From Daphnia carinata (Eukaryota > Arthropoda > Branchiopoda > Diplostraca > Daphniidae), in the NCBI RefSeq assembly GCF_022539665.2, contig NC_081331.1, forward strand, positions 13,796,638 to 13,860,637: DNA of 64,000 nucleotides, written 5' to 3'. Positions 1 through 44,272 of this stretch are shown here, piece by piece. Numbering within the stretch: position 1 is the stretch's first letter; every line of letters begins with the position of its first letter. Under the pieces are notes generated by a model. It was given only the letters and a program-made list of their open reading frames with translations. It was not told the origin of the DNA and made no database searches. The translations under genes and the position numbers were made by a program.

Positions 1-135
1 TGCTGCTAGTGCAGTGGCAATGATTGGAAAAAGAATGATCTGTTCAAATTCACAATGATCACATATTATAAGATGCATATAGTTAAGTTCAAGTAAAACA
101 GCTTTACGTTGCAATATACTTACCAAAAATTTCAT
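1..135 (-). CDS. Secreted protein gene, 5' end only (runs off window edge)
   Basis: This is the start of a gene whose complete copy lies at 9607-10344. Exon 1 (124-135) encodes MKFL, the intron is 40-123 with donor GTAAGT and acceptor CAG, and exon 2 runs from 39 off the left edge. The visible exon 2 codes IILFPIIATALAA, the hydrophobic core of a signal peptide. A minus-strand TATAAAA lies at 212-218 and a TCAGT initiator at 182-186, so the start is well supported. The sequence matches its duplicate base for base here. Function is unknown. Confidence 0.8.
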   Translation of the reverse strand, partial: MKFLVSILQRKAVLLELNYMHLIICDHCEFEQIILFPIIATALAA

Positions 136-2564
136 GGTGATTCTTGTTGTTTAAAGTATACGGGAAGATCGTTCGTTGAATACTGAATATCAAAGGGTCT
201 ACTTCTCGGGTTTTTATACACCGAGGAAGCGAATGGCAATATCACCGTAAGCATGTCATTTTATACGAATAGAATATTACTTACAATGTCTTGACCAGCG
301 TAATTGCCTCCTATACGATTTTCTTCCCCGCTCAAAACAAGATGAAAAAAAAAACTGGTTTAGAGTTCATTATATGGTTCCATCATACTGGATCCAGTCC
401 AGCTAAAATGCCCCGACTCCTTGGTCAAAGCTGAAGATCAGACAAAGGTGAACTTGCATTTTTGCATACACGATGGCATGAAGTCAGTGATCTGGGCAAG
501 TTCTCCGCCGGACCATCTGCGCATAGTATTGAGCAGCCAACCCAACTGATTCAACTTTATACCACATTCACCGCCTCATTTATAAAGATGCCCAGTTTTA
601 GAACCATTTCGTTGATCAAAAGTATGAAAAAAACAAGGCGAAAACCTTAATGCGCTAAAAAATGACACCTTGCTGTCAGGCTGTTGGCCATTTTCTGTAT
701 AAATGAAAACCTAGTCAATACTTTCCCAACATTAAGTTTTATTGAATTTACGGTACGCTTATAGAACCACACTAGGTATTATCAATATCTTTTCGTTAAT
801 TGGGACCGTCTCGAAAAGGAGGGGCGTGTGAGAAGTTTGGTCTACCGGGCAAAATTGTGTCCATGACGGATGGTTCGTGAGGCAAGGTCAGGCCAGCCAA
901 GTACATCGGATAAAATTAGCAACAGGTAAATAGCTGCCTTCAGCATTGGCTTGCTGCACGCGTGTTCACAACGCGGGGAATTTTTATTTCAAGGTTCTGC
1001 AGGGCAGGATCAAGCGTCTGGAAACAGCCGTGCTGGATCATTTACAATGGCAGACGATGTGTTAACTAGGCAGACAGACCAAGAGTATTGTAGAAATTTT
1101 TGTTTATACCAGTTTTCTGTTAAGAATAGAGTCGACAAAGATTGATGAGGTCAAGTTGAGTTGCTGCCCACCTATTCAAGTGAACTCTGGCCGAGGCATC
1201 AACATTTGTTGCTGATTTTTCCGGAACACATGCCCACGGTGGAATGCATAATCACAAATTAAATAGTATTTAATTATAGCTACATTATATATATTGCCAG
1301 ACCATACAACAGTATGGTGAGTAATGTAATTCTATACGAATTTTGATTGGTTACTAGTAAGAAACGCATAAATTTAAGGCGAAATAGGAATTGGTATTTA
1401 AATAGCAGTACAAAAAGAAACCTTACCATTCAGTTGAAAATAACAATTTACCAATGATTAACGAAAAATACTACTAAAGCTAATTAAACTTTAGTGCAAT
1501 AATAATATTTACCGAGCACTTTACGGTGGCACTTGCAGTCTTAATTGAGATGGAACACGATTCACCAATAAAACAAAATTCAAATAGGATATTTGTATGG
1601 TAATGCATACAAGGTATTCCGCACATACACAAATAGAAGAACAAAGTCTGAACCGGTTCCATAAAGCCTAGTGCCCACTAATTCAGGTTTCAATACTCTT
1701 GGAGGTATAAGCTGAAAGGTGAGAAAATGTGTTTCGAAATCGAAATGCTTTCGAATCGTTATTCGAATGCACAACACTTAAAATTCAACTGTCACATTAG
1801 AGAGGCATCTAAACCACAGAGGTAATGTACACGAACTAACTAGACATGGTAAAAAATATGTAGCTCAGTCTCAGCAGTAACCTATTGAAGTTGAGACTGA
1901 AAGGTGAGACAATACGATATGAAGAAAAAAAAAGAAAAGGAGAGAAAAATGAGATAACGGCCATTATGGATTTTTTGTGACCCTTCCCACAGCTCTCGTC
2001 GCTTACAAACCCATGACTAAAAAAATTGTCAGTTTCTCGGAAAACCGTCTAGCAAAAAACAAAAAAGAAAAAAAAAGGAAAAAGGAAAAACCAGTGACCG
2101 ATGAGAGAAAAAAACAAGAGGAGTGCACTAATTTAGAAAACGACATTATGTCGGAGCTGATTGTCGCTATCAAATTGTTTTAGTAAATTCGCTATTTGAA
2201 ACGAAGATTTATTAACAGCGGAGACTTGGACTCATGTAAAATTTTTATTGTGAATCCGAATGATGAAACTTGAAAAATAATTTGGACTGATTACTGTCTT
2301 AGACATTTTCTTAAGTGCTTATCCCTCAGTCCGTTCTCAATCAATATCCAGCATTTCACATCACGATGTACCTACACATCATTCAGTCGCATCGCAATAC
2401 TCTTCCACAGCAAATCAACGCCGAGCACCCAACATCGACGCAACAACTCAATTTCATAAAGAACTACATTAAATTTCAAACAATCACGTTTACTAGATGG
2501 TATCGGCTTTCATAGATGAAGTACATGGCTTTAAATTATTTATTCAATTGAGAGTTTCATTAAT
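136..2564. other. Intergenic, no supported gene
   Basis: The stretch is AT-rich with short open frames only, most of them starting at non-ATG codons. Around 1690-1730, 1880-1910 and 1960-2010 it contains pieces (GAGGTATAAGCTGAAAGGTG-like and GCCATTATGGATTTTTTG-like) that recur at 6565-6640 and 16655-16725, so part of it is a dispersed repeat. I see no exon with convincing splice sites. The promoter of the leftmost gene occupies about 136-230. Confidence 0.6.
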
Positions 2565-3276
2565 TTAGTAGATCTTGTAGCCTTTACCGTTGAAAGGGAT
2601 GTGGACAGGCAGTTCGTATTCGTGGACGGGAGCGACGGGCAAGTGATCACCTTTGGGTTGAAATCCGGCTTCATCAGCGGCCCAAGTGAAAGTGAACTTC
2701 TGACCCTCAGGAGAAATCCAGTAAGAAGATCCTTTGTTGGTGTTGCCAAGGACTTCGCCGTAAGATTCTTTTCCATAAGAATCATAGGTGACTCCTTGCA
2801 TCTTCTTCTGGACCTGAGACTCTTCACGGGTGGTGTAATCAGACTGGGCGTAGCTATAAATTGAAACAATTCAGTTTATTAGTATGCGAATCTTGGATCC
2901 CCATATTAAAGGGATACTGAATGAAACTGACTTACCTCCATTGGCTACTGCCATCGATGTTGCGTTCATCAGATTGGCTGGTGACGGTAATGGCAGCGTA
3001 CTTGTTATCCTTGTAGGCTGGTGCGGAGTAAGCTGGTGCGGGGTAGGCGGGCGCGGTGTAGGCTGGTGCTGGGTAGCTAGGAGTAGGGTACTTTGGAGCG
3101 GGGTAGCTTGGGGCTGGATAACTGGTAGCTTTGTATTCCGGTTTGAAGCTGGATGGTACGGCGGCAGCAACAGCCAAGAATGCGGCGACGAAGAACTATC
3201 GGAAAATGCCGTTATTAATTTTAAGTCCAAAGTTTTTTCCACTTTAAGAAGAAATAAAAAGCCTTACCAGCTTCAT
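2565..3276 (-). CDS. RR-1 cuticle protein, KIY-type (copy A)
   Basis: Structural exoskeleton protein expected to bind chitin. Three exons: 3268-3276 (MKL), 2936-3195 and 2565-2853, giving 185 aa. Exon 2 encodes the signal peptide core FFVAAFLAVAAA and a Pro/Tyr repeat (SYPAP, AYTAP, AYSAP units). Exon 3 carries the Rebers-Riddiford core with GSSYWISPEG and ADEAGFQPKGDHLP, where the canonical Tyr is Trp, after an insert holding QKKMQGVTYDSYGKESYGE. The protein ends GKGYKIY. Donor and acceptor sites are canonical and the phases agree. It is transcribed divergently from the next gene. It differs from its duplicate by FTFTW versus FTLTW. Confidence 0.93.
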
Positions 3277-3938
3277 GTTGTACAATGTTAGTTTGGTAAA
3301 CAACTGATGCTTTTTTGTTCTCCATTCTTGGGCTTTTATAGTCAAGTGAATGGTAAGTAACATGTAGTCGGGCATCTAGTTGACCTAGTTATTTTGGCTG
3401 CTAGCTTTCGTTCTAGTAACATAGGTGTGGGCGTTGTGCAAAAATTCTGCACTCTCACTTTTCACATTAGACACTTTGCAAAATGTTTCCCTTCTTTGCG
3501 ATAGCTCTATCTGCCAGACCGTCTACAATTTCACATTTCAATAGCCCAGTTTTAGACGAAAGTGCTAGAATTTGCCAAATGCATTGAATAAAAGTGCTGA
3601 ATCTCTTAAAATTGGTATATTGATTTCTTTCTACTCGTTCAAAGTGAACATCTTCGCGTAAATCAAGAGAAAGGTTATTAATTGCTCAATAAACCAAAGC
3701 AGAAGTATAAGCAAAAGTACGTAGATGTTCCTACCTATTCGCCGCATGCAATCACTGCATTGCAAGAGCCATGGCCTGGAATGCAAACCATAGATAACCA
3801 CCAAAGGACGGTGATCATCGCTTTCAAAAGTAGGTTGTTAAATGAAATAGAAACGACACACCCTTTTCTGCCGGCTACATAAGCCCGTGTGATTGTGATT
3901 CAAGTCATCAGTTGTTCAAATCATCAATAGTACTCAAC
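3277..3938. promoter_or_regulatory. Bidirectional cuticle-gene promoter, pair 1
   Basis: Shared 662-bp promoter. On the minus side there is an initiator CATCAGTTGTT (complement at 3299-3309), a TATA-like box (3333-3341) and a conserved block starting GGGCGTTGTGCAAAAA at about 3429. On the plus side there is TAACCACCAAAGGACGGTGA with its flank (3795-3826), ACACACCC (3856-3863), TACATAAG (3876-3883) and CATCAGTTGTT (3906-3916). The same blocks recur in the same order in the other four pairs. Confidence 0.75.
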
Positions 3939-4692
3939 ATGAAACTAGTAAACGGAATTTTATATTTGATTTTGATCTTAGAAGTTTCATCTCTTATTAA
4001 CAAGTTTCGATTTCTTTTCGTGTAGTTTGTCCTCGTCGCTTTCTTGGCCGTCGCTGCCGCTGTTCCATCCAGCTACAAGCCGGAATACAAAGCTCCCAGT
4101 TACCCTGCCCCAAGCTACACTACACCAAAGTACCCTACACCGAGCTACCCCGCACCGAGCTACCCCGCACCAGCCTACCCCTCACCAGCCTACCCTACTC
4201 CCAGCTACAACAAGGACAACAAATACGCTGACATTACCATCACCAGCCAATCTGATGAGCGCAACCTCGATGGAAGCAGCCAATGGAGGTAATTCAACTT
4301 AATTCTTTACGTTATTACCATAGGGTTTAATAATTCTTAAAAATAAATTTAATTCTTTCACCTATAGCTACGCCCAGTCTGACTATACTACCCGTGAAGA
4401 GTCTCAGGTCCAGAAGAAGATGCAAGGAGTCACCTACGATTCTTACGGCAAAGAATCGTACGGTGAAGTCCTTGGCAACACCAACAAAGGATCATCTTAC
4501 TGGGTTTCGCCTGAAGGCCAAAAATTTACCTTGACGTGGACTGCCGATGAAGCCGGTTTCCAGCCCAAGGGTGATCACTTGCCCGTCGCTCCCGTCCACG
4601 TTTACGAGCTTCCAGTTGCTCCCGTCCACGAATACGAACTCCCGGTCGCCCCCGCTCTCCCTTATGCGCGGCGCACTGGACTCGGCTATTAA
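3939..4692 (+). CDS. RR-1 cuticle protein, GLGY-type (copy A)
   Basis: Secreted cuticle protein of 198 aa in three exons: 3939-3947 (MKL), 4026-4288 and 4368-4692. Exon 2 carries signal peptide core FVLAFLAVAAA-like residues and Pro/Tyr repeats such as SYPAPSY and AYPSPAY, then NKDNKYADITITSQSDERN. Exon 3 has the RR-1 domain (GSSYWVSPEG, TADEAGFQPKGDHLP) followed by two VAPVHxYELP repeats and the end TGLGY. Donors are GTAAAC and GTAATT. AATAAA lies at 4765. A 3-bp difference gives ARRTGLGY here against ARTGLGY in the duplicate. Confidence 0.93.
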
Positions 4693-4884
4693 AATTTAAA
4701 CATTTCGTTAGTGATATCTATGCGATGCGACCTATGCAGGCCTAACTTATTCTAATTATGTTCAAATAAACGAATGGAAACGGAACACATTTCAAACATG
4801 AAACTTGTTGCTCCTAAAAATTATTGTTGTGATAGGGAACAAAATAAAATTACAAAAAAGATATACCTGGATTTTGTTACTCAT

Positions 4885-4898
4885 CTGCCACCTAGCGG
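4885..4898 (-). promoter_or_regulatory. CTCF-like motif upstream of RNA copy A
   Basis: The complement reads CCGCTAGGTGGCAG, one base away from the published CTCF consensus CCGCGNGGNGGCAG. Related sites lie 265-283 bp upstream of the TATA box in the other RNA copies (15093-15106, 21512-21525, 29144-29156, 32160-32172). Whether a CTCF protein binds here is inference. Confidence 0.4.
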
Positions 4899-5138
4899 CT
4901 GAACGCGGAGAAAATTCCCGATCTTTAGCGTTCCATTCACGCACGGTGATTACGTCATACAAATCTTATATTTTGCATTTCCACGCATAATTATTGTTCT
5001 TTAATGCATTCTATCTTATTAAAGCAACAATGTAAAAAGGAAAAAATAAAGTTCATTTCTTGTTTTCGTCAATTTAGTTTATTATGTTTGCGAAATCTAA
5101 CAAAAACGTGCAAAAAACACCACTTGTATTTTGTAAAC

Positions 5139-5170
5139 GATGGTTGCATCGTCTGGGAACGGTATAAAAG
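5139..5170 (+). promoter_or_regulatory. PSE-like element plus TATA box, RNA copy A
   Basis: A conserved GATGGTTGCATCGTCT block (5139-5154) is followed after 8 bp by TATAAAAG (5163-5170) and ACTTGAT. The arrangement and spacing resemble PSE+TATA snRNA promoters used by RNA polymerase III in animals. Confidence 0.55.
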
Positions 5171-5192
5171 ACTTGATAAAGCACTCCAAGGA

Positions 5193-5610
5193 TAGTAACG
5201 GTGTTAGCTCGCTAGCACCGTTACGGTGGGATGCCATAGGTTCAACTATGTGCGATGGTATACGGTGGCTAATATGGTGATGGACGTAGTCCGACCATTT
5301 GGAGATTGTCTGACGCTAATTCCAGGTCGAAATGGCTTCAAGACTATCGTAAAGATCCACATTAGCTACAGTATGCTATCACACATGGCTGCACTCATGG
5401 TAAATGGTGGCTATATGGTGATGAACGTAGTCCGACCATTGGAGATTGTCTGACGCTCATTCCAGGTCGAAATGGCTTCAAGACTGCGGTAAAGATCCAT
5501 ATAGTCTGAACAACCTTGGCTCGACTGAAAGCGAACGCTGTACCCCTAAATGGAGGAAGCTAGGAGTCAACACGGATTATCGGCCGGTAATTCGACCAAA
5601 TCCCACTTTT
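5193..5610 (+). ncRNA. Candidate Pol III-type structured RNA, copy A (long form)
   Basis: The predicted 5' end carries a hairpin (5195-5224): 13-bp stem with arm GTAACGGTGTTAG and loop CTCG. It starts 32 nt after the TATA box. GTGGGAT (5226-5232) directly after the hairpin can pair with ATCCCAC (5600-5606) directly before the TTTT at 5607-5610, which would close the molecule. The body contains a direct repeat of about 108 bp with a 141-142 bp period (5255-5362 and 5397-5504). Open frames inside are short and not conserved in the short copies. I do not recognise it as U6, 7SK, RNase P/MRP or telomerase RNA. Transcription is inferred. Confidence 0.55.
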
Positions 5611-5650
5611 GTTTTTACATTTTACCCGTTCATCCTGCAACGTACCTGCG

Positions 5651-7454
5651 TAAGTAGTATGCGTAACGCATAATATACAAGCTTTAAAATATTGATTACG
5701 CTTTATTTACCCTTGATTTCCTATGACTTAGTTCTTTAAGGCGTATTAACACTGTGTATGAAATTTATTGCCTGGCAAGAACGTGTCCTTGGATGGTTTG
5801 CTGGACATACCCCTATACGTTAAATAATAGAATGAAATTATTAATAGATTTTTGTTTTCAGGAACGCGTTAAATTCTTATATTACGGTTCTTTCAGAAAA
5901 GGCTAGACAATGGAAAACGACCGTGATGAATCATTTTTGCATAATAATTTATCTAACGCAGGAGCGAGCAGGATGGTGAAACTCTTATCTTACCTAGTGG
6001 GCTCTTGGCGATAAGTTGATAAAGATTTAATAGGTCACGGTTACTTGTTGCCAACCCGTTCAAGTCGAAACTGGTCAAAGCTTCAAATTTTGCATTTCAC
6101 TTGCTGGAATGCAGGTGAAATATTTCGGCATAACGAGGGATTAGTGGCGCACAAAATCAAGTCACAAGTGAAGTTGAATTTCAGCCTACATCATTTAGTA
6201 ATATAACAACATTGCAACAACTTGCACGATTTTATGAAATTTTTGAGAGACTAATCTGGCTCATAATTTTGAGGCCAGAGCCGACGGCCTCCTGCAAGTT
6301 TCAGGTGGAACAGGTAGTACTGATTAAATGGCAGTACCAAAAGAAAGACGTTTCCATAAAGTTAATAGTTGCATGTTGCCAATCACTAACACAAGCAAAA
6401 TTTTGCTCGAAAATTAAAACATCCACAATTTTTTTTGTTGAGAACGAGATGCACGACACGCAGTATTTGACTGTACACTATGGAATTACCGAAATTATAG
6501 AGATACAAAAGTTAAACTGTTCGCGCTGGTAAAAATGACATGTGGCATGGTTTCAGTTAATAGTTTTGGAGGTAGAGGCTGAAAAGTGAGAAAAAATTGA
6601 AAGAAAAAGAAAGGAAGCGGCCATCATGGATTTTTGATCCCCTCTTCCCCCAGTTCCAATATGCGGATGTTTTCTCTACCTTAAGAAATGCATTTTCTCG
6701 AAACTGTTGAACCAAAAAGAAAGTATAAATAATAAAAAAGTGGCGGGTGGGGTATGAGAAAAACAATCACTTGAAGGCGCTAAAATGGGTGGAGCAATGG
6801 GGATAGCGCACTCGAGCGAATCAACCACGGGAACTTGGGTGGGAAATAATAATTATATTAATGGATTATTACCGGGCAGACGGTACGCTGTCGTCATTCG
6901 CACGTACAAGAGAGAGAGACTACGTCGTAACCGAACTTGACTACATCTAAAGGCCAAGAGAAAAACGCTGTCCGCCTGTTTCAGCAATAAAACGTCTTTA
7001 CATTTCACGATCATTCACTTGGTGAGATGCTATAGTGAAAGTAAAAGAGGATCGATTCGTTGAACTGAATAAAGGGCTTTCAAATTGATGGCGCTATGGG
7101 TCGTTGTAGACGGTTGGATGCTACCCAAGCACCGCCAGTTCATCCTTAACGAGGCAGAAAACATGTGTAGCATGACGTTTGTTGGCGTGGTGAAAGGAGG
7201 TGGCTACAAATAGGCATGCCCGGCTAAAAACATTCAAAATTGGCAGCTTATAGGATCGTATAAAAGGTATTAAAGCGATACCGCTATAGGCAACAGGGAT
7301 GAATTAAGCAAAAAACTTGGACGAAATAAAAAATGATTGGTACGTTTTAACAGTACAGCGTCTCTGGCAGGACGTGCTGGACACCACAAAAGTCGATATA
7401 AGAACGCGACCCACCGAATGGGACAAACACTTGCACTCGAATCGTCTTCTTAAA
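5651..7454. repeat. Diverged homology to 15860-16900; no gene seen
   Basis: From about 5690 to 6880 this aligns with 15900-16900 in long but clearly diverged blocks with indels. It is therefore an older duplicate flanking the near-identical block. It includes the dispersed GAGGTAGAGGCTGAAAAGTG and GGCCATCATGGATTTTTGAT pieces (6568-6640). The 106-codon frame at 6212-6532 has no start context, signal or homologue here. From 6900 the sequence is unique in the window. Confidence 0.6.
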
Positions 7455-9606: not shown

Positions 9607-10344
9607 TTATCCCAAAAAGGTGTCGGCTGGAACGGCACCTTTTCCGTACTGGGCCAAGGTATTCATAAATGAAGGGCCACTGTAGGGGGTGAGGTTGTTT
9701 AAATATGGGATAAAACTACCAGCAGATGGTTGGGCGGCGTTGGGCATCTCGTTTTGATAGGCAACGTATGGAACATTGACGTAGGGGTTCCAAAAAGTAG
9801 GGACAGTGACGGGAAGTGGACGTTTCTGATTATTAGGGTTTACAGCAACTTTAGCAATGGAGGATACTGGAGAAAACGCAAAGCTTTCGTCAAAACCATT
9901 GATTTGTGGCATATCATAAATTCCTAACTGTTCCAGTACGCTCTTCAAGCTGTCAACCTTTGCTGTTGTGTTTTCGGAACGGAAAGGGATGGTAGGCGAC
10001 GGGCAATTAGTGGAAGTAAAGACGCACGATAAGTACATATTGATGATTCTCTGAGTACTTTCCTTACACATTCGACTTATAAGATTCAAGTTTGTGACGA
10101 GAGCATTGAATGCATTGGCATTTCGACTTTGTTTGTCGTCAGCAGCAACTGGAACTGAATTCGTCAATAATGGCTCACGAACGACAGTAGAAGTCTCAAG
10201 AGGGATAGATGCTGCTAGTGCAGTGGCAATGATTGGAAAAAGAATGATCTGTTCAAATTCACAATGATCACATATTATAAGATGCATATAGTTAAGTTCA
10301 AGTAAAACAGCTTTACGTTGCAATATACTTACCAAAAATTTCAT
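9607..10344 (-). CDS. Secreted protein of unknown function (complete)
   Basis: Two exons: 10333-10344 (MKFL) and 9607-10248, joined in phase 0, giving 217 aa. The N-terminus is a signal peptide (IILFPIIATALAA) followed by SIPLETSTVV. A central segment holds Cys residues (MCKESTQ, YLSCVFTSTNCPSP), and the C-terminal half includes VPTFWNPYVNVPYVAYQNEM and SGPSFMNTLAQYGKG. It is clearly related to the gene at 24368-25007 (VPVAADD, WNPYxNVP, GSFIPY). TATA (10421-10427) and TCAGT (10391-10395) lie upstream on the minus strand. I recognise no known domain. Confidence 0.85.
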   Translation of the reverse strand: MKFLVSILQRKAVLLELNYMHLIICDHCEFEQIILFPIIATALAASIPLETSTVVREPLLTNSVPVAADDKQSRNANAFNALVTNLNLISRMCKESTQRIINMYLSCVFTSTNCPSPTIPFRSENTTAKVDSLKSVLEQLGIYDMPQINGFDESFAFSPVSSIAKVAVNPNNQKRPLPVTVPTFWNPYVNVPYVAYQNEMPNAAQPSAGSFIPYLNNLTPYSGPSFMNTLAQYGKGAVPADTFLG

Positions 10345-12774
10345 GGTGATTCTTGTTGTTTAAAGTATACGGGAAGATCGTTCGTTGAATACTGAATATC
10401 AAAGGGTCTACTTCTCGGGTTTTTATACACCGAGGAAGCGAATGGCAATATCACCGTAAGCATGTCATTTTATACGAATAGAATATTACTTACAATGTCT
10501 TGACCAGCGTAATTGCCTCCTATACGATTTTCTTCCCCGCTCAAAACAAGATGAAAAAAAAAACTGGTTTAGAGTTCATTATATGGTTCCATCATACTGG
10601 ATCCAGTCCAGCTAAAATGCCCCGACTCCTTGGTCAAAGCTGAAGATCAGACAAAGGTGAACTTGCATTTTTGCATACACGATGGCATGAAGTCAGTGAT
10701 CTGGGCAAGTTCTCCGCCGGACCATCTGCGCATAGTATTGAGCAGCCAACCCAACTGATTCAACTTTATACCACATTCACCGCCTCATTTATAAAGATGC
10801 CCAGTTTTAGAACCATTTCGTTGATCAAAAGTATGAAAAAAACAAGGCGAAAACCTTAATGCGCTAAAAAATGACACCTTGCTGTCAGGCTGTTGGCCAT
10901 TTTCTGTATAAATGAAAACCTAGTCAATACTTTCCCAACATTAAGTTTTATTGAATTTACGGTACGCTTATAGAACCACACTAGGTATTATCAATATCTT
11001 TTCGTTAATTGGGACCGTCTCGAAAAGGAGGGGCGTGTGAGAAGTTTGGTCTACCGGGCAAAATTGTGTCCATGACGGATGGTTCGTGAGGCAAGGTCAG
11101 GCCAGCCAAGTACATCGGATAAAATTAGCAACAGGTAAATAGCTGCCTTCAGCATTGGCTTGCTGCACGCGTGTTCACAACGCGGGGAATTTTTATTTCA
11201 AGGTTCTGCAGGGCAGGATCAAGCGTCTGGAAACAGCCGTGCTGGATCATTTACAATGGCAGACGATGTGTTAACTAGGCAGACAGACCAAGAGTATTGT
11301 AGAAATTTTTGTTTATACCAGTTTTCTGTTAAGAATAGAGTCGACAAAGATTGATGAGGTCAAGTTGAGTTGCTGCCCACCTATTCAAGTGAACTCTGGC
11401 CGAGGCATCAACATTTGTTGCTGATTTTTCCGGAACACATGCCCACGGTGGAATGCATAATCACAAATTAAATAGTATTTAATTATAGCTACATTATATA
11501 TATTGCCAGACCATACAACAGTATGGTGAGTAATGTAATTCTATACGAATTTTGATTGGTTACTAGTAAGAAACGCATAAATTTAAGGCGAAATAGGAAT
11601 TGGTATTTAAATAGCAGTACAAAAAGAAACCTTACCATTCAGTTGAAAATAACAATTTACCAATGATTAACGAAAAATACTACTAAAGCTAATTAAACTT
11701 TAGTGCAATAATAATATTTACCGAGCACTTTACGGTGGCACTTGCAGTCTTAATTGAGATGGAACACGATTCACCAATAAAACAAAATTCAAATAGGATA
11801 TTTGTATGGTAATGCATACAAGGTATTCCGCACATACACAAATAGAAGAACAAAGTCTGAACCGGTTCCATAAAGCCTAGTGCCCACTAATTCAGGTTTC
11901 AATACTCTTGGAGGTATAAGCTGAAAGGTGAGAAAATGTGTTTCGAAATCGAAATGCTTTCGAATCGTTATTCGAATGCACAACACTTAAAATTCAACTG
12001 TCACATTAGAGAGGCATCTAAACCACAGAGGTAATGTACACGAACTAACTAGACATGGTAAAAAATATGTAGCTCAGTCTCAGCAGTAACCTATTGAAGT
12101 TGAGACTGAAAGGTGAGACAATACGATATGAAGAAAAAAAAAAGAAAAGGAGAGAAAAATGAGATAACGGCCATTATGGATTTTTTGTGACCCTTCCCAC
12201 AGCTCTCGTCGCTTACAAACCCATGACTAAAAAAATTGTCAGTTTCTCGGAAAACCGTCTAGCAAAAAACAATAAAGAAAAAAAAAGGAAAAAGGAAAAA
12301 CCAGTGACCGATGAGAGAAAAAAACAAGAGGAGTGCACTAATTTAGAAAACGACATTATGTCGGAGCTGATTGTCGCTATCAAATTGTTTTAGTAAATTC
12401 GCTATTTGAAACGAAGATTTATTAACAGCGGAGACTTGGACTCATGTAAAATTTTTATTGTGAATCCGAATGATGAAACTTGAAAAATAATTTGGACTGA
12501 TTACTGTCTTAGACATTTTCTTAAGTGCTTATCCCTCAGTCCGTTCTCAATCAATATCCAGCATTTCACATCACGATGTACCTACACATCATTCAGTCGC
12601 ATCGCAATACTCTTCCACAGCAAATCAACGCCGAGCACCCAACATCGACGCAACAACTCAATTTCATAAAGAACTACATTAAATTTCAAACAATCACGTT
12701 TACTAGATGGTATCGGCTTTCATAGATGAAGTACATGGCTTTAAATTATTTATTCAATTGAGAGTTTCATTAAT
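10345..12774. other. Intergenic duplicate of 136-2564
   Basis: Same content as the corresponding stretch of copy A: promoter of the minus-strand secreted gene, then AT-rich sequence with dispersed-repeat pieces near 11900-12220. No supported gene. Small frames are preserved simply because the copies are nearly identical. Confidence 0.6.
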
Positions 12775-13486
12775 TTAGTAGATCTTGTAGCCTTTACCGT
12801 TGAAAGGGATGTGGACAGGCAGTTCGTATTCGTGGACGGGAGCGACGGGCAAGTGATCACCTTTGGGTTGAAATCCGGCTTCATCAGCGGCCCAAGTGAG
12901 AGTGAACTTCTGACCCTCAGGAGAAATCCAGTAAGAAGATCCTTTGTTGGTGTTGCCAAGGACTTCGCCGTAAGATTCTTTTCCATAAGAATCATAGGTG
13001 ACTCCTTGCATCTTCTTCTGGACCTGAGACTCTTCACGGGTGGTGTAATCAGACTGGGCGTAGCTATAAATTGAAACAATTCAGTTTATTAGTATGCGAA
13101 TCTTGGATCCCCATATTAAAGGGATACTGAATGAAACTGACTTACCTCCATTGGCTACTGCCATCGATGTTGCGTTCATCAGATTGGCTGGTGACGGTAA
13201 TGGCAGCGTACTTGTTATCCTTGTAGGCTGGTGCGGAGTAAGCTGGTGCGGGGTAGGCGGGCGCGGTGTAGGCTGGTGCTGGGTAGCTAGGAGTAGGGTA
13301 CTTTGGAGCGGGGTAGCTTGGGGCTGGATAACTGGTAGCTTTGTATTCCGGTTTGAAGCTGGATGGTACGGCGGCAGCAACAGCCAAGAATGCGGCGACG
13401 AAGAACTATCGGAAAATGCCGTTATTAATTTTAAGTCCAAAGTTTTTTCCACTTTAAGAAGAAATAAAAAGCCTTACCAGCTTCAT
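12775..13486 (-). CDS. RR-1 cuticle protein, KIY-type (copy B)
   Basis: Duplicate of the gene at 2565-3276, also 185 aa. Exons: 13478-13486 (MKL), 13146-13405 and 12775-13063. It has a signal peptide, Pro/Tyr repeat (SYPAPSYPAPKYPTP), then the RR-1 chitin-binding core ending in DEAGFQPKGDHLP, and the tail VHIPFNGKGYKIY. All splice sites are intact. It reads FTLTW where copy A reads FTFTW, and the Leu agrees with the other paralogues, so copy A carries the derived change. Confidence 0.93.
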
Positions 13487-14149
13487 GTTGTACAATGTTA
13501 GTTTGGTAAACAACTGATGCTTTTTTGTTCTCCATTCTTGGGCTTTTATAGTCAAGTGAATGGTAAGTAACATGTAGTCGGGCATCTAGTTGACCTAGTT
13601 ATTTTGGCTGCTAGCTTTCGTTCTAGTAACATAGGTGTGGGCGTTGTGCAAAAAATTCTGCACTCTCACTTTTCACATTAGACACTTTGCAAAATGTTTC
13701 CCTTCTTTGCGATAGCTCTATCTGCCAGACCGTCTACAATTTCACATTTCAATAGCCCAGTTTTAGACGAAAGTGCTAGAATTTGCCAAATGCATTGAAT
13801 AAAAGTGCTGAATCTCTTAAAATTGGTATATTGATTTCTTTCTACTCGTTCAAAGTGAACATCTTCGCGTAAATCAAGAGAAAGGTTATTAATTGCTCAA
13901 TAAACTAAAGCAGAAGTATAAGCAAAAGTACGTAGATGTTCCTACCTATTCGCCGCATGCAATCACTGCATTGCAAGAGCCATGGCCTGGAATGCAAACC
14001 ATAGATAACCACCAAAGGACGGTGATCATCGCTTTCAAAAGTAGGTTGTTAAATGAAATAGAAACGACACACCCTTTTCTGCCGGCTACATAAGCCCGTG
14101 TGATTGTGATTCAAGTCATCAGTTGTTCAAATCATCAATAGTACTCAAC
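13487..14149. promoter_or_regulatory. Bidirectional cuticle-gene promoter, pair 2
   Basis: Near-identical to the pair 1 promoter, with one extra A in the run after GGGCGTTGTGC. It contains minus and plus CATCAGTTGTT initiators, the TAACCACCAAAGGACGG block (about 14006) and ACACACCC. Core elements are unchanged. Confidence 0.75.
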
Positions 14150-14900
14150 ATGAAACTAGTAAACGGAATTTTATATTTGATTTTGATCTTAGAAGTTTCA
14201 TCTCTTATTAACAAGTTTCGATTTCTTTTCGTGTAGTTTGTCCTCGTCGCTTTCTTGGCCGTCGCTGCCGCTGTTCCATCCAGCTACAAGCCGGAATACA
14301 AAGCTCCCAGTTACCCTGCCCCAAGCTACACTACACCAAAGTACCCTACACCGAGCTACCCCGCACCGAGCTACCCCGCACCAGCCTACCCCGCACCAGC
14401 CTACCCTACTCCCAGCTACAACAAGGACAACAAATACGCTGACATTACCATCACCAGCCAATCTGATGAGCGCAACCTCGATGGAAGCAGCCAATGGAGG
14501 TAATTCAACTTAATTCTTTACGTTATTACCATAGGGTTTAATAATTCTTAAAAATAAATTTAATTCTTTCACCTATAGCTACGCCCAGTCTGACTATACT
14601 ACCCGTGAAGAGTCTCAGGTCCAGAAGAAGATGCAAGGAGTCACCTACGATTCTTACGGCAAAGAATCGTACGGTGAAGTCCTTGGCAACACCAACAAAG
14701 GATCATCTTACTGGGTTTCGCCTGAAGGCCAAAAGTTTACCTTGACGTGGACTGCCGATGAAGCCGGTTTCCAGCCCAAGGGTGATCACTTGCCCGTTGC
14801 TCCCGTTCACGTCTACGAGCTTCCCGTTGCCCCCGTCCACGAATACGTTCTCCCCGTTGCCCCAGCTCTCCCTTATGCGCGCACTGGACTCGGCTATTAA
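14150..14900 (+). CDS. RR-1 cuticle protein, GLGY-type (copy B)
   Basis: Duplicate of 3939-4692, 197 aa, with exons 14150-14158, 14237-14499 and 14579-14900. Signal peptide, Pro/Tyr repeats (AYPAPAYPTPSY), RR-1 domain and VAPVH repeats are all intact. The last 30 codons differ from copy A at many sites within about 85 bp and read HEYVLPVAPALPYARTGLGY, matching the genes at 28052 and 34335 better than copy A does. This suggests a short conversion tract. Confidence 0.93.
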
Positions 14901-15346
14901 AATTTAAACATTTCGTTAGTGATATCTATGCGATGCTACCTATGCAGGCCTAACTTATTCTAATTATGTTCAAATAAACGAATGGAAACGGAACACATTT
15001 CAAACATGAAACTTGTTGCTCCTAAAAATTATTGTTGTGATAGGGAACAAAATAAAATTACAAAAAAGATATACCTGGATTTTGTTACTCATCTGCCACC
15101 TAGCGGCTGAACGCGGAGAAAATTCCCGATCTTTAGCGTTCCATTCACGCACGGTGATTACGTCATACGAATCTTATATTTTGCATTTCCACGCATAATT
15201 ATTGTTCTTTAATGCATTCTATCTTATTAAAGCAACAATGTAAAAAGGAAAAAATAAAGTTCATTTCTTGTTTTCGTCAATTTAGTTTATTATGTTCGCG
15301 AAATCTAACAAAAACGTGCAAAAAACACCACTTGTATTTTGTAAAC

Positions 15347-15378
15347 GATGGTTGCATCGTCTGGGAACGGTATAAAAG
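15347..15378 (+). promoter_or_regulatory. PSE-like element plus TATA box, RNA copy B
   Basis: Same conserved GATGGTTGCATCGTCT block, 8-bp gap and TATAAAAG (15371-15378) as in copy A. Confidence 0.55.
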
Positions 15379-15400
15379 ACTTGATAAAGCACTCCAAGGA

Positions 15401-15818
15401 TAGTAACGGTGTTAGCTCGCTAGCACCGTTACGGTGGGATGCCATAGGTTCAACTATGTGCGATGGTATACGGTGGCTAATATGGTGATGGACGTAGTCC
15501 GACCATTTGGAGATTGTCTGACGCTAATTCCAGGTCGAAATGGCTTCAAGACTATCGTAAAGATCCACATTAGCTACAGTATGCTATCACACATGGCTGC
15601 ACTCATGGTAAATGGTGGCTATATGGTGATGAACGTAGTCCGACCATTGGAGATTGTCTGACGCTCATTCCAGGTCGAAATGGCTTCAAGACTGCGGTAA
15701 AGATCCATATAGTCTGAACAACCTTGGCTCGACTGAAAGCGAACGCTGTACCCCTAAATGGAGGAAGCTAGGAGTCAACACGGATTATCGGCCGGTAATT
15801 CGACCAAATCCCACTTTT
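15401..15818 (+). ncRNA. Candidate Pol III-type structured RNA, copy B (long form)
   Basis: Near-identical to the RNA candidate at 5193-5610, with hairpin at 15403-15432 beginning 32 nt after the TATA box, the internal direct repeat, and CCCAC followed by TTTT at 15815-15818. It sits just inside the right end of the near-identical duplication, so its similarity to copy A is not independent evidence of constraint. Confidence 0.53.
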
Positions 15819-15858
15819 GTTTTTACATTTTACCCGTTCACCCTGCAACGTACGTGCG

Positions 15859-17229
15859 TATCGGGGGAAAAAATCAGATCAAGGTACGCTAAGCTTTACT
15901 GAACTGATTACGCTTTATTTACCCTTTATTTCTTATGGCTTAGTTCTTTAAGTTACTTGGTATGAAATTTATTTCCTGGCAAGGGCGTGTCCTTGGATGA
16001 TTTGCTGGACATAGCCATGCATGTTAAATAATAGAATGAAATTATTAACAGGTTTCGTTCTCAGTAACGATATCTTATATTACTATTCTTTCAGAAATGG
16101 TCAGACAATGGAAAACGAGCGTGGTGAACCATTTTTGCATAATAAATTATCTAACACAGGAACGAGCAGGATCGTGAAACTCTTGTCTTACCCAGTCTGC
16201 TGTTGGCGATATAGTCGATACAGATTTAATGGGTCACGGTTATTTTCTGCCAACACGTTCAAGTCGAAACTAGTCAAAGCTTCAAGTTTTACGTTTCACT
16301 TGCTGGAATGCACGTGAAATAATGCGGCATAGTATCGGTGGCGCACAAAATCAAGTCACAAGCGAAGTTGAAGCCGACGGCATCCTTACGTTTCAGGTGA
16401 AACAGGTAGTACTGATTAAATGGCAGTACCAAAAGAAAGACGTTCCCACAAAGTTCATAGTTACATATTGAAAACCATTTACACACATAAAATTTTATTC
16501 GCAAATGAAAATATCCACAAGCTTTCTTGTTGAGAACGAGATTCACGACACGCAGTATTTCATTTTTACACTTTAGAATTGCAGAAAACAGAGAGATAGA
16601 AAAGTCAAACTGTTCGGGCTGGGCACAAATGACATGTGGCATGGTTTCAGTTAATAGCTTTGGAGGTAGAGGCTGAAAAGTGAGAAAAATTTAAAAGAAA
16701 GGAAGCGGCCATTATGGATTTTTGATCGCCCCTTCCCTCAGCTCTGATGTGCGGATGTTTTCTCTACCTTTAAAAATAATCTTCTCTAAACTGTCGAGCC
16801 AAAAAAAGTCTAAATAATAAAAAGTGATGGATGGAATAAGAGAAAAACAATCACTTGAGGCGCTAGGGTGGAGTAAAACAAAAATAATTATCAGCTGACA
16901 TCCTGTTAGCATTTTCCAGACGTCATTCATTAATGAAATTTAATTCAATTAGTTGTTCCTCCCATTACGCCGTATCTATGCTGCGTTGTAAATATAAAGA
17001 AGTATTTAACTCTAAAACTTAAATTTAAGGCATTGGAATTACCAAATAATTGTGATTGGTGATTCTGATCGATGTAGAGCGAGAAGCAATTTTGATTAAT
17101 GAAGTAGATTAATAGTATCTTTGATAGACATCGTTTTATATTTCCTCGTATTTACACCAACAATACAAAAAGCATCAAGGCATAAAATACACGGATTTAA
17201 GTTATTTGTGCGGTCAGGTAGTCAATAAT
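15859..17229. other. Intergenic, diverged homology to 5690-6880
   Basis: Aligned blocks with 5690-6880 run to about 16900, including the dispersed repeat pieces at 16655-16725. The frames at 16021-16317 and 16289-16642 (minus) have no homologous frame in the other copy, which argues against coding. The remaining 300 bp to 17229 shows nothing. Confidence 0.55.
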
Positions 17230-21130: not shown

Positions 21131-21774
21131 GAATGAAACATAAATGTACTATATAAGTTTATTTTACTGATACGAAATAAAAATAGATATGTCTTCATAT
21201 CCGTTTAGCATTATTACGGAGGGTACGAACAGTTTGAAAGATGTTACTTCTCTGTGTGAGCACAAGTTTGTCGATTTGCACACATTTCGAACGCAGGTCT
21301 CACATACAGCTTCATTTGACGCACGGCGGAGTAAAGAATACCTTTGGCTTGATTGTTGGTTAAAAGCACTCAAAGATACAATTCAAACAACAAAATAAGA
21401 GTTAAATGTTGTAAAGGCCACTAATTGTTGTTTGCTCCTGAAGAATTACTGATGTGACACTGCACAGCAGACTAAAAAACTTTTAAAAGATTTCTGTTAT
21501 GTGCGACTCATCTGCCACCTAGCGGCAAGCCGAAGAGAAGTTTTTAAATTTTGTAGCGGGATTGGTAGATTCCAGTCACGAATGATGGTTACAAGAAACA
21601 ATTCATCTATTATAACGTTTTTCACGTAAAATTGTTTTTCTTCCATGAAAATAATTCTATCAATAAAATAATACATGAAGTAACGAATAAAGTTCATTTT
21701 TTATTACCGTCAATATATTATACCTTGTTTGCGGAATTTTACATCAAGCTTCAAAATCCGAAAAAAATTGTAGT

Positions 21775-21807
21775 GATGGTTGGATCATCTGGGGAGCTGT
21801 ATAAAAG
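21775..21807 (+). promoter_or_regulatory. PSE-like element plus TATA box, RNA copy C
   Basis: GATGGTTGGATCATCT (21775-21790), 9-bp gap, TATAAAAG (21800-21807). The flanks differ from copies A and B while these two boxes are kept. Confidence 0.55.
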
Positions 21808-21829
21808 ACTTGATAAAGCACTCCAAGGA

Positions 21830-22248
21830 TAGTAACGGTGTTAGCTTGCTAGCACCGTTACGGTGGGATGCCATAGGTTCAACTACGTGCGATGGTATAC
21901 GGTGGCTAATATGGTGATGGACGTAGTCCGACCATTTGGAGATTGTCTGACGCTAATTCCAGGTCGAAATGGCTTCAAGACTGTCGTAAAGATCCACATT
22001 AGCTACAATATGCTATCACACATGGCTGCACTCATGGTAAATGGTGGCTATATGGTGATGAACGTAGTCCGACCATTTGGAGATCGTCTGACGCTCATTC
22101 CAGGTCGAAATGGCTTCACGACTGTCGTAAAGATCCACATAGTCTGAACAACCTTGGCTCGATTGAAAGCGAACGCTGTACCCCTAAATGGAGGAAGCTA
22201 GGAGTCAACACGGATTATCGGCCGGTAATTCGACCAAATCCCACTTTT
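21830..22248 (+). ncRNA. Candidate Pol III-type structured RNA, copy C (long form)
   Basis: Hairpin at 21832-21861 (loop CTTG instead of CTCG, stem unchanged) starting 32 nt after the TATA box. Same internal direct repeat, same 5' GTGGGAT and 3' ATCCCAC complementary ends, and a run of eight T at 22245-22252. The body is almost the same as copies A and B, whereas sequence on either side is much more diverged. This points to selection on, or conversion of, the RNA itself. Confidence 0.58.
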
Positions 22249-22252
22249 TTTT

Positions 22253-28051: not shown

Positions 28052-28786
28052 ATGAAACTAGTAAATTTCTTTTGATTTTTCTTTTGTTCACAATTTCATA
28101 GCTTATTGAAAAACTCTTTTCGCAGTTTGTTATCGCCGCTTTCTTGGCCGTCGCTGCCGCTGTTCCATCCAGCTACAAGCCGGAATACAAGGCTCCCAGC
28201 TATCCTGCCCCAAGCTACCCTGCACCAAAGTACGCAGCACCTGCCTACTCTGCCCCAGCCTACTCCGCACCTGCCTACTCCGCACCTGCCTACTCCGCAC
28301 CAGCCTACAAGGATAACAAGTACGCTGGTATCACCATCACCAGCCAATCTGACGAGCGCAATCTCGATGGCAGCAGCCAATGGAGGTAAATCTATTTCAA
28401 TCTTTATATTCGTTAATTTAAGATTTAAAGATATTTTATAATAAATAATTCTCCCAACTCACAGCTATGCCCAGTCTGACTACACCACCCGTGAAGAGTC
28501 TCAGGTTCAGAAGAAAATGCAAGGAGTTACTTACGACTCTTATGGAAAAGAATCGTACGGTGAAGTCCTCGGCAACACCAACAAGGGATCTTCCTACTGG
28601 ATCTCCCCCGAAGGCCAGAAGTTCACTTTGACCTGGGTTGCTGATGATGCCGGTTTCCAGCCCAAGGGTGACCACTTGCCCGTTGCTCCCGTCCACGTCT
28701 ACGAACTCCCAGTTGCACCCGTTCACGAATACGTTCTCCCCGTCGCCCCGGCTCTCCCCTACTCCCGCACCGGAGCTGGTTATTAA
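28052..28786 (+). CDS. RR-1 cuticle protein, GAGY-type
   Basis: 196 aa in exons 28052-28060 (MKL), 28126-28385 and 28465-28786. Signal core FVIAAFLAVAAA, Pro/Tyr repeats (KYAAPAYSAPAYSAP), KDNKYAGITITSQSDERN, RR-1 domain (GSSYWISPEG, ADDAGFQPKGDHLP), VAPVH repeats and the end SRTGAGY. An AATAAA lies near 28853. The third position of codons is GC-rich, unlike the AT-rich flanks, as expected of a highly expressed gene. Confidence 0.93.
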
Positions 28787-29413
28787 GTTGTGAATTTTTC
28801 CGCCGTGAAATTTGAATGGCGTGAGCCATCCAAGTGTAATTTATTGATAAGAAATAAACGCAAATTATGTTTTGAATTCCGTAAAAGGCAATGATCTGAG
28901 TAGTCTAAACAAATGTTTCCTTATATAAATGGAACTTCTTTATTTGTAGAAGAATGTCGTGGCCAGCGCAGTTATCACCTTCGTTTCCACCGATTCCCGT
29001 CAATTCCATTCGTTGAAAACATAGCGACAAAGGTGTCCGGTTTCGCACCAATTAAATCAACTAAGCTGCTAATCACGTTTTCTCTAATAACATTACAGGC
29101 CCAGCTACACGAATGAGAAGGTTTAGTTAAACGTGCTAGTCACGTGCCACCTCGTGACGACCGAGGAGAAGCTTCCCGGTCTTACAGCGGTACACGGTCC
29201 AATCACGACCCGTGATTAGGTCATCCGTCTTTTCTATTATGGCTTTTTTTGCATGTAATTAATCTTTAGCATGAAAGAAATTCTATTCAAAAGACATTAA
29301 AAGAAGTAAAGAATAAAGTTCATTTATTAAAATTTTCAATTTTATTTATTTTGTTTGCTATATTTAACATTAAACGCCAGTTTGTACCATTGGGCCGTAG
29401 TTTTTTTATCAGT

Positions 29414-29446
29414 GATAGTTAGATCATCTATTGTACGGTATAAAAG
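29414..29446 (+). promoter_or_regulatory. PSE-like element plus TATA box, RNA copy D
   Basis: GATAGTTAGATCATCT (29414-29429), 9-bp gap, TATAAAAG (29439-29446) followed by ACTTGATGAAAC. Confidence 0.55.
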
Positions 29447-29468
29447 ACTTGATGAAACAATTTATGTT

Positions 29469-29711
29469 TGGTGACGGTGTTGGTTCTCTAGCGCCGTTAC
29501 TGCGTGTATGTGCGTTACTAATGAATGTTTATCTAATTGCAGGTCTGGGAATGGATGAAAAGAGTGACGCAAAGGTCGCGGCCGTTTGAACAACGTTGGA
29601 TTGTGATTACACTGGCTGGTTACATGGAAAGGAAACGCTATAAACTCTAAATGGAAATTAGATGTCCACACGGTGGATTAAAACGGATATGACGACCAAT
29701 CCCACTCTTTT
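29469..29711 (+). ncRNA. Candidate Pol III-type structured RNA, copy D (short form)
   Basis: Hairpin 29471-29500 starts 32 nt after TATA. Its arms read GTGACGGTGTTGG and CTAGCGCCGTTAC with loop TTCT. All 13 positions pair when G-U is allowed, despite four changes from copies A-C. The body lacks the internal direct repeat, so the RNA is about 240 nt. The 3' part keeps CTAAATGGA, CCACACGG and GACCAATCCCAC before CTTTT (29708-29711), all recognisable in the long copies. Confidence 0.57.
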
Positions 29712-29740: not shown

Positions 29741-30443
29741 TTATATTTAAATCAATCACTCACATCAAAGCACAAATCAAAGTAACATAATAGAATTACG
29801 TGTTGGAAAGGGCATGATATACCCAATCGATACAGACTGAAATAATTTGAATTAAAAAAAGCTTTTTAATTTAAAAAAATATTTGCCAACAATAAAACGA
29901 TTTATCGCTCACGCGGGAAATGTCCGTGGAATGGTGGGGTGGAGAGCCGGAAGTTAAAGTAGCGTGCGATTCTATAAGATACATGTTAATATGAATCAAA
30001 GGCAATCTAAAATCACGCGAGAAAGGAGTGGGCTTGTACGTCGTATCCATATTAAATTTAATCTACATTTTATAATCGACGTGGACACCTATAGTTTCCT
30101 CCATTAGTAAGGTGTTTAATCCCAGTATCCCAGTTTAGTTTTGAATCGTTTCAATGGAACGAAAATACTTCATTTCGATTACAAAAACGAACGCAATGAT
30201 AAAAAGAACAAATGTAATTTATGCTTTGTGTATTCAGTTCCCTATTTATCTGAATAGTTTTCAAATTGGATGAATAGTTACGTATTTGTAATACATTCGA
30301 ATAGTGGGACGTGTAGGGATAATCGTGTGCCGAAAATAATAGAACGTTCACAAATCCCGGCTACTAAGGGTTTCATTATTCTCTTCGATCTACTGCTAGA
30401 TGGCTTTTGCGCAGAAGATTCAAAGAAATATTAGATTTTTCTG
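29741..30443. other. Intergenic, nothing recognised
   Basis: AT-rich, no supported gene or shared repeat. Confidence 0.5.
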
Positions 30444-31403: not shown

Positions 31404-32429
31404 TTTGCTTAATGTTTAACAGAAAATTCTATTTCACGTGAGTAGTGACACTGGAAGCTTCTGTTTTTGCTACTGACTGTTTACCGTTTTATATACAGAC
31501 TTCGTTTTTTAAAAAATGACGCACAGACCGAGAGCCAATGACAGAAAGTAGTGCGTGCAAAACAATGTTATTGTGTACAGTCACCTTTATGAAACGTGTG
31601 GCGCTACTGACGAGCGAAAGCCGGTGATGCATCAAAACTTTGCGTGGAATAAGGTAACACCTGTGTGAGGTGTGCGATCCAATTCCGGGATGAAATGCGC
31701 CATACGAATACAGCCTGTGTAAAATGAAATCGTTGCGATGAATCCACGAACTCATTTTGTAGATGGCTGTGCTACACACCGTCAAATTCAATGTCCAAAT
31801 ATTTTAATGATCACGTAAAACCTGGCTCAATGTTCTGGTCGGCTTCGGTACTTGCGTGCGTTGCATTGACGCACGTGCTAGGGACAAAATGTTTCAGCTG
31901 CGCCATGGACGCATCAACCGTGTGACACTTACTGAAACTTCGCTACTTGTAGAAGACTGTCGTAGCCAACGCAGTTATTACCTTCGTTTCCACCGATATC
32001 TGTCATTTCCATTCGTCGAGAACAAAGCGACGAAGGTGACTGGTTTCACACAATTAAATCAACTAAGCTGCTAATCACGTTTTCTCTAATAACATTGCCA
32101 ATGTGACAAGACAGGCCCAACTGCACGAATGAGACCGTTTAGTTAAGCGTGCTAGTCACGTGCCACCTGGCGACGACCGAGGAGAAGCTTCCCGGTCTTA
32201 CAGCGGGACACAGTCCAATCACGACCCGAGATTAGGTCATCCGTCTTTTCTATTATGGCTTTTTTTCATATTTAATTAATTTCTAGCATGAAAGAAATTC
32301 TATTCAAAATACATTAAAAGAAGTAAAGAATAAAGTTCATTTATTAAAATTCTCAATTTTATTTATTTTGTTTGCTTAATTTAACATTAAACGTCAGTTT
32401 GTGCCATTGAACGGTAGTTTTTTATCAGT

Positions 32430-32462
32430 GCTAGTTAGATCATCTATTGTACAGTATAAAAG
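32430..32462 (+). promoter_or_regulatory. PSE-like element plus TATA box, RNA copy E
   Basis: GCTAGTTAGATCATCT (32430-32445), 9-bp gap, TATAAAAG (32455-32462) followed by ACTTGATGAAAC. Confidence 0.55.
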
Positions 32463-32484
32463 ACTTGATGAAACAAATTATGTT

Positions 32485-32726
32485 TGGTAACGGTGTTGGT
32501 TCGCTAGCGCCGTTACTACGTGTATATGCCTTACTAATGAATGTTTCTCTAATTGCAGGCATGGGAATGGATGAAAAGAGTGACGCAAAGGTCGTAGGAA
32601 TTTAAACAACGATGGAGTGTGATCACACTGGCTGATTACATGGAGGGAAACGCCATAAACTCTAAATGGAAATTAGGTGTCCACACGGTGGATTAATACG
32701 GATATGGAGACCAAACCCACTCTTTT
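32485..32726 (+). ncRNA. Candidate Pol III-type structured RNA, copy E (short form)
   Basis: Hairpin 32487-32516 starts 32 nt after TATA, with arms GTAACGGTGTTGG and CTAGCGCCGTTAC and a TTCG tetraloop. Three changes from copies A-C are all pairing-neutral (G-U). Length is about 240 nt. The 3' end GACCAAACCCACTC is followed by six T (32723-32728). It differs from copy D at many positions in the body but keeps the hairpin, the CTCTAAATGGAAATTAG segment, the CCACACGGTGGATTA segment and the 3' end. Confidence 0.57.
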
Positions 32727-43559: not shown

Positions 43560-44272
43560 TGTACCGTGATTTTCTGCTGATTCGCACTACAATACAAACG
43601 TTTATCATACATTATTCAAAAGCGGTTTTGCATATGGCTGAAGGCAATGGCCGATGACTGTGCCATGAAATGTTCTATCTACGAAATCTAGGAAAGGTAA
43701 TAATTCAAATTTGCGAGTTACGCATGACAAAGAACATGAATAGATGATTCTGCAGTTTTACTAGGCATGTATACATGCCCAATTTTTTATTATTGCATCT
43801 CATTTCGTTTGAATGACAAGACGAAAGATCAACGTGAACATGTTTGCAGCACGCTTTGATTGCTTTATATAGGTATATGATAATCAATCTGTCTTGATAC
43901 CGAAAGAGATGTCTGATCTTTTTTGGGCCTAGACATCGCATGGAAATTTGGATGTCATGATGAATGATTTATAGCGGGCAGAGGTTCTGCTTTGTTTGGT
44001 TTTTTCAATACTATTAGTTAACGTTCATTTTAAATGTCCCAATCTCAGATCTTTTCATATAGATCCACAAAAATTAAACGTGATAGCATTGGTCAAATTT
44101 CACAGAATAATTTTCTGCTGAAGTTGAGGTTTGATAAAGAATTATAGCTTCACTGAAGCTTTATAGTAATGACCATTTTTGAATGCAGTTTTTTTTTTCG
44201 GAAAATTCGTGTGTATAAAAAAATCTCAATCAACAGGACAAGTTTAAATTTTACATATCAATTGCGTCTTAT
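43560..44272. other. Intergenic, nothing recognised
   Basis: AT-rich spacer between convergent small cuticle genes, no supported gene. Confidence 0.5.

Follow-up and report, generated by a model that had tools for sequence, protein, structure and literature searches.

The RNAs known to be made from type 3 promoters of RNA polymerase III (Pol III) are few and mostly housekeeping. Small RNAs of the Y RNA/stem-bulge type are multi-copy in nematodes. The snRNA-type Pol III promoters of arthropods consist of a PSEA and a TATA box, as described in PMC9841428. In the same source the telomerase RNA of Hymenoptera was assigned to Pol III by the match of its PSE to the snRNA genes of the species. For human and mouse a collection of different snRNA-like transcripts which depend on PSE and TATA was reported, and Y RNAs and nematode stem-bulge RNAs were described as small Pol III products with a U tail at the 3' end (PMC3472747 and PMC3509611, and PMC4726728 and PMC4450293, respectively).

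A stretch of 64,000 nucleotides of the Daphnia carinata genome, called the window throughout, was found to carry five plus-strand copies (A to E) of an element which probably represents non-coding RNA genes of one multi-copy family, each with an external Pol III promoter of type 3 and carried along as a passenger of cuticle-gene units. With U6, U6atac, 7SK and RNase MRP the element shares a PSE followed by a TATA box at -31, a predicted purine start and a predicted end at a T-run; an internal promoter is not known in these four genes, and ARAGORN detected no tRNA in the window. U6 also has a hairpin at +1. In contrast to these genes, the element has no sequence or covariance-model match to them, is linked to a protein-gene family and comprises at least 52 related hairpins, whereas theirs amount to one to four among the matches listed.

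The PSE and TATA box of the element fit the arthropod Pol III layout given in PMC9841428. Like the human and mouse transcripts, the element is an un-annotated unit found via a type 3 promoter; unlike them, it forms one homologous family which was amplified in the cuticle clusters of a crustacean. Assignment to Pol III by the PSE of the species' own snRNA genes is shared with the account of hymenopteran telomerase RNA. However, no TTAGG-type template was seen by eye in the alignment of class 1 copies (defined below), and 52 copies would be odd for a telomerase template RNA. With Y RNAs and stem-bulge RNAs the element shares its small size, predicted Pol III origin and U tail, but the 3' end of class 1 is predicted to pair internally and not with the 5' end, and there is no Rfam match. 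None of the titles found in the open-licence part of the literature describes this RNA gene family.

Promoter and architecture of the copies in the window

A preliminary description of the window had listed five loci with a shared promoter, hairpin and 3' end, and all five were found again (Table 1). Its upstream box GATxGTT... is present in the other copies and differs by one base in E (GCTAGTT...). The spacer between box and TATA, given before as 8-9 bp, measures 8 nt in A and B and 9 nt in C, D and E. In all five copies a hairpin of 13 bp begins exactly 32 nt past the first T of TATA, as had been stated; the positions given for the five loci (5193 etc.) lie 2 nt before the hairpin starts throughout. 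The 3' end reads CCCACTTTT in A, B and C and CCCACTCTTTT in D and E. The terminal motif common to the window copies is CCCAC(TC)TTTT, in agreement with the C(C)CAC(TC) running into TTTT noted earlier.

Table 1: Positions of the element copies, their parts and neighbouring features in the window
Feature	Position	Strand	Remark
Copy A PSE, 18-mer	5130..5147	+	at -64 from presumed +1; score 11.3, best of 100-nt upstream
Copy A TATA box inside TATAAAAGACTTGAT	5163..5177	+	
Copy A predicted RNA, class 2, 417 nt, to T-run	5194..5610	+	+1 placed at TATA+31 by analogy
Copy A 13-bp 5' hairpin	5195..5224	+	loop CUCG
Copy B PSE	15338..15355	+	score 11.3
Copy B TATAAAAGACTTGAT	15371..15385	+	
Copy B predicted RNA, same sequence as A (recent duplication)	15402..15818	+	hairpin 15403-15432
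Copy C PSE position, weak match	21767..21784	+	best position -64, score only 1.2
Copy C TATAAAAGACTTGAT	21800..21814	+	
Copy C predicted RNA, class 2, 418 nt	21831..22248	+	hairpin 21832-21861; T-run 22245-22252
Copy D PSE	29405..29422	+	at -65; score 6.5
Copy D TATAAAAGACTTGAT	29439..29453	+	
Copy D predicted RNA, class 1, 242 nt	29470..29711	+	hairpin 29471-29500; T-run 29708-29711
Copy E PSE	32421..32438	+	at -65; score 7.5
Copy E TATAAAAGACTTGAT	32455..32469	+	
Copy E predicted RNA, class 1, 241 nt	32486..32726	+	hairpin 32487-32516, loop UUCG; T-run from 32723
Cuticle protein exon (Chitin_bind_4)	4324..4689	+	506 bp upstream of A hairpin; PF00379, E 3.4e-13
Cuticle protein exon	28445..28783	+	688 bp upstream of D hairpin; PF00379, E 3.4e-11
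CTCF-like 14-mer	4885, 15093, 21512, 29144, 32160		1-2 mismatches to the consensus

The PSE was analyzed with a motif built from seven upstream regions of the same genome (U1, three U2, a 7SK candidate, U6atac and MRP); the upstreams of the element were left out of motif building. Of the 83 positions scored per upstream, the best was located at -64/-65 in 17 of 27 distinct upstreams of the element, which is the PSE position in 7SK and U6atac of the same genome. Thirteen of these 17 placed PSEs score 5.9-11.3, compared with 6.3-11.0 for left-out true genes, whose scores keep the sites chosen in a run that included two U6 genes dropped afterwards. Among 55 control TATA-like boxes in the window the best PSE match fell into the -64/-65 slot in four cases, and one box scored 5 or more there. 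A scan of the whole window for PSE plus TATA revealed 10 matches; the two with the highest scores, and two more, are copies of the element. Copy C was missed; it scores only 1.2, and agreement with the motif at this position is likewise poor in the two U6 genes.

No PSE match in place was detected in 10 of the 27 distinct upstreams. In the copies concerned the 3' half is broken or the TATA box is altered, except for C7:2270951 and C10:1206245, which retain the 3' end. The copies on contig C2 have kept a good PSE and lost the 3' half.

The distance from TATA to the presumed start is 31 nt in all five window copies and corresponds to that of U6, 7SK and U6atac of the same genome, the +1 of the copies having been set at TATA+31 by analogy with these three genes. 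MRP as modelled shows a distance of 28 nt. All five window copies carry a purine (G or A) immediately before the hairpin. The placement of the PSE, the 31-nt spacing and the block ending at the T-run all argue for the undescribed family of Pol III type 3 genes that had been suspected from the letters of the window.

Family size, classes and the conserved block

The genome searched comprises 108 Mb on 106 contigs. The 30-mer of the hairpin matched 52 times and the 34-mer of the promoter 41 times at up to three mismatches, while the reversed controls gave no match. Both numbers are far beyond chance, and both include related, non-independent copies, as do all copy counts given here, and may be inflated by the small contigs C82, C49 and C84, which possibly repeat the end of C9. 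Genome-wide, 45 of 48 distinct TATA sites are followed by the hairpin at exactly 32 nt; among the other three sites, two are without the hairpin, and at the third it contains an extra base. At least six large contigs carry members of the family, namely C1, C2, C4, C7, C9 and C10, and many copies are near-identical inside tandem arrays. The promoter pattern matched viral contigs 32 times, in no case with the hairpin, and gave no match in prokaryote genomes.

The copies fall into two classes. Class 2 contains A, B and C (about 417 nt) and a shorter relative at C9:9306040, and class 1 contains D and E (about 241 nt); D/E-like copies form the majority of the full-length copies in the genome. Both classes have common ends, and the middle of class 2 is longer and different, A-C holding an additional copy of it. 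A profile built from 17 class 1 copies matched the 5' part (E 3e-16 to 3e-18) as well as the 3' part (E 7e-9 to 1e-8) of class 2. Judged by these profile matches, class 1 and class 2 are homologous.

Positions 1-6178 and 10210-16372 of the window are a segmental duplication of 98% identity which carries a cuticle gene pair and the RNA gene. Since A and B lie within this repeat and are 100% identical over 498 bp, the window holds four distinct copies. A and C are identical at 430 of 440 positions (97.7%) from TATA to the T-run, at 185 of 275 (67%) in the 280 bp before TATA and at 127 of 353 (36%) downstream of the T-run. The conserved block of A and C is bounded by TATA and the T-run, and the 31 untranscribed nucleotides after TATA are as conserved as the predicted RNA. 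Gene conversion could have caused this block. In the comparison of D with E, identity does not change at the promoter; the two are alike from -480 to about +290.

Several incomplete relatives were also observed. L004-L010, which adjoin cuticle genes on C9, C49, C82 and C84, consist of a class 2 body only: promoter and hairpin are absent, and identity to A amounts to 93% across about 375 nt. On the minus strand of the window, at 30022-30099, lies an isolated and degenerate piece of the 3' end of the RNA gene, which has lost its T-run. In other broken copies (L027, L043, L046, L085-L089, L092, L093 and L097) a tRNA-like SINE, recognised by eye from A/B-box-like strings, takes the place of the 3' half.

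Predicted transcript

The hairpin consists of 13 pairs and a four-base loop, which is UUCG in E and most class 1 copies and CUCG, CUUG or UUCU in A/B, C and D. Across 14 distinct hairpins 95.6% of the cells are paired. One compensatory change (U-A to C-G at C4:9240674) was observed; it was equalled in 73 of 500 shuffles, so covariation of the hairpin is not significant. A middle helix likewise has one double change and no significant covariation. Support from covariation is weak.

None of seven class 1 bodies was clearly better folded than its shuffles (z -2.2 and -2.0, the other five near or above 0), and the fold of class 2 was stronger than that of shuffles (z -5.8). The fold predicted for class 1 has a local 5' hairpin and a 3' end that pairs inside the RNA and not with the 5' end. 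A microRNA precursor was considered for class 2 and rejected after the Rfam search at E <= 5 despite the strong fold.

No TTTT precedes the terminal one in any of 20 distinct copies with the terminal motif, a sample obtained from 22 listed bodies by removal of two C2 chimeras with internal TTTT whose 3' pattern match was spurious. From random points the first TTTT was at least 235 nt away in 23% and at least 410 nt away in 11%. Thus, the absence of internal TTTT is only a modest argument, because random stretches are often without TTTT too.

The covariance models of Rfam 15 gave no match in the window at the gathering cut-off. At E <= 5, copy E matched only RAGATH-25 (0.51) and copy A only MIR6217 (0.024, 20.9 of 110 bits), sR2 and sR14. 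This agrees with the previous impression that the body matches no recognised RNA; an Rfam hit, which had been named beforehand as speaking against a new family, was looked for and not obtained. Two other identities were tried and rejected, an antisense RNA to cuticle mRNA (longest exact complement outside the elements 11-12 nt) and a coding gene (longest ATG frame 22-78 aa).

The following course of events is proposed. The PSE at -64/-65 would be occupied by SNAPc and the TATA box at -31 by TBP/TFIIIB, and transcription by Pol III would begin at the purine that directly precedes the 13-bp hairpin. Termination at the T-run behind CCCAC(TC) would give an RNA of about 240 nt in class 1 and of 417 nt in class 2. 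The hairpin at its 5' end has the same place as in U6 and 7SK; it probably makes the RNA more stable and may permit a gamma-methyl cap, and the U tail would be bound by La or LARP7.

Linkage to cuticle genes and competing explanations

The neighbours of the copies in the window are cuticle genes of the Chitin_bind_4 type. Copies A-D lie 506-705 bp downstream of a plus-strand cuticle exon, as the preliminary description had it; for E, at 3.7 kb, "just downstream" does not apply. Genome-wide, a cuticle exon was found within 2.5 kb of at least 37 of the 52 hairpins, a lower bound because 145 of 154 cuticle matches were used. For random points, in a control in which the extents of four contigs were guessed, the value is about 0.4%. 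This supports the idea, already put forward, that copy number increased together with the cuticle cluster. Of the near copies, 36 of 37 have retained a promoter match as well as the 3' end, compared with 2 of 15 far copies (Fisher p 2e-9, the copies not being independent). The sole near copy without both lies on C4; the two far copies with both are located on C54, at the contig end, and at C7:2270951, which is without PSE.

In the favoured reading, the RNA genes would have increased in number by being carried along in tandem cuticle-gene units. That the RNA is conserved speaks for an RNA product, and a trans-acting RNP used by cuticle-producing cells appears its most likely role, which we propose tentatively. 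A bolder version, in which a Daphnia-specific Pol III RNA serves the cuticle clusters, either as a trans-acting RNP that controls cuticle transcription at moult in the manner of 7SK or as a Pol III boundary unit separating neighbouring cuticle genes, and stays intact only beside them, is doubtful. If the family is what it appears to be, a lineage-specific Pol III type 3 RNA exists in dozens of copies together with a fast-evolving cuticle family and provides an example of how type 3 RNA genes arise and spread. Confirmation by expression would establish a new RNA family multiplied together with a protein-gene cluster. Moreover, Pol III activity would be connected in a testable way with gene clusters related to moult, in a standard genus of ecotoxicology, and the Daphnia PSE derived here, with its position and motif, can be used to find further Pol III genes.

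The main sober rival regards the element as a non-functional passenger, perhaps active, which was copied with the cuticle units and is kept similar by like-with-like conversion. The many near-identical copies in tandem arrays and the decay away from cuticle genes (13 of 15 without promoter match or 3' end) are consistent with it. However, the TATA-hairpin spacing and the terminal motif persist across classes with diverged middles, and the A/C unit stands at 97.7% identity while its flanks fell to 67% and 36%. We consider absence of function unlikely, though a serious competitor.

Somewhat less probable still is an action in cis, in which Pol III transcription or the DNA itself forms a boundary between cuticle genes and the RNA matters little. 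Such a role is made possible by the genomic position and by a CTCF-like motif in about half the upstreams. All five window copies lie between an upstream plus-strand and a downstream minus-strand cuticle exon, and 28 of the 37 near copies have, on one side or on both, a cuticle gene within 2.5 kb whose 3' side is turned towards them. Yet a convergent cuticle pair within 10 kb on both sides surrounds only 12 of the 37. The 14-mer, which resembles the CTCF consensus, is found in every window copy with 1-2 mismatches, 278-295 bp before the TATA box, and at up to two mismatches in 12 of 25 distinct upstreams compared with 15 of 400 random segments, but it is missing in about half of the upstreams. 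Many cuticle exons (e.g., at C1:13.95-13.98 Mb and on C5) have no listed copy nearby, and the conserved RNA body and 3' end would be needless for a mere transcription event.

It is improbable that the element is a TATA promoter from which Pol II makes a long non-coding RNA or an mRNA lacking annotation. TATAAAAG could also serve as a Pol II box, and class 1 contains the strings TTGCAG/GT and CAG/GTAAGT, but the PSE is in place, the block ends at the T-run, and the longest ATG frame (22-78 aa) has unequal sizes in A and C, 59 and 78 aa, although these copies are near-identical. That the copies form a family of transposons or SINEs is highly improbable in spite of the multiple copies on at least six large contigs: homology reaches 240 bp upstream of TATA, so the copies arose at the DNA level and not from retroposed transcripts, ARAGORN detected no tRNA in the window, the tRNA-like SINE that does occur is a separate insertion in broken copies, and instead of the dispersed transposon once named as the counter-case, intact copies were found tied to their cuticle neighbours.

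Apart from the putative Pol III family beside the cuticle genes, the PSE plus TATA matches in the window include one at 46949 on the plus strand (score 6.3) and one at 43871 on the minus strand (score 7.6). Elsewhere in the genome, the candidate 7SK gene (L077, C10:6598394-6598694) reached 43.5 bits against a gathering score of 44 and possesses PSE and TATA. The U1 and U2 genes are located in shared clusters on C5, at 5.95-6.00 and 8.85-8.94 Mb.
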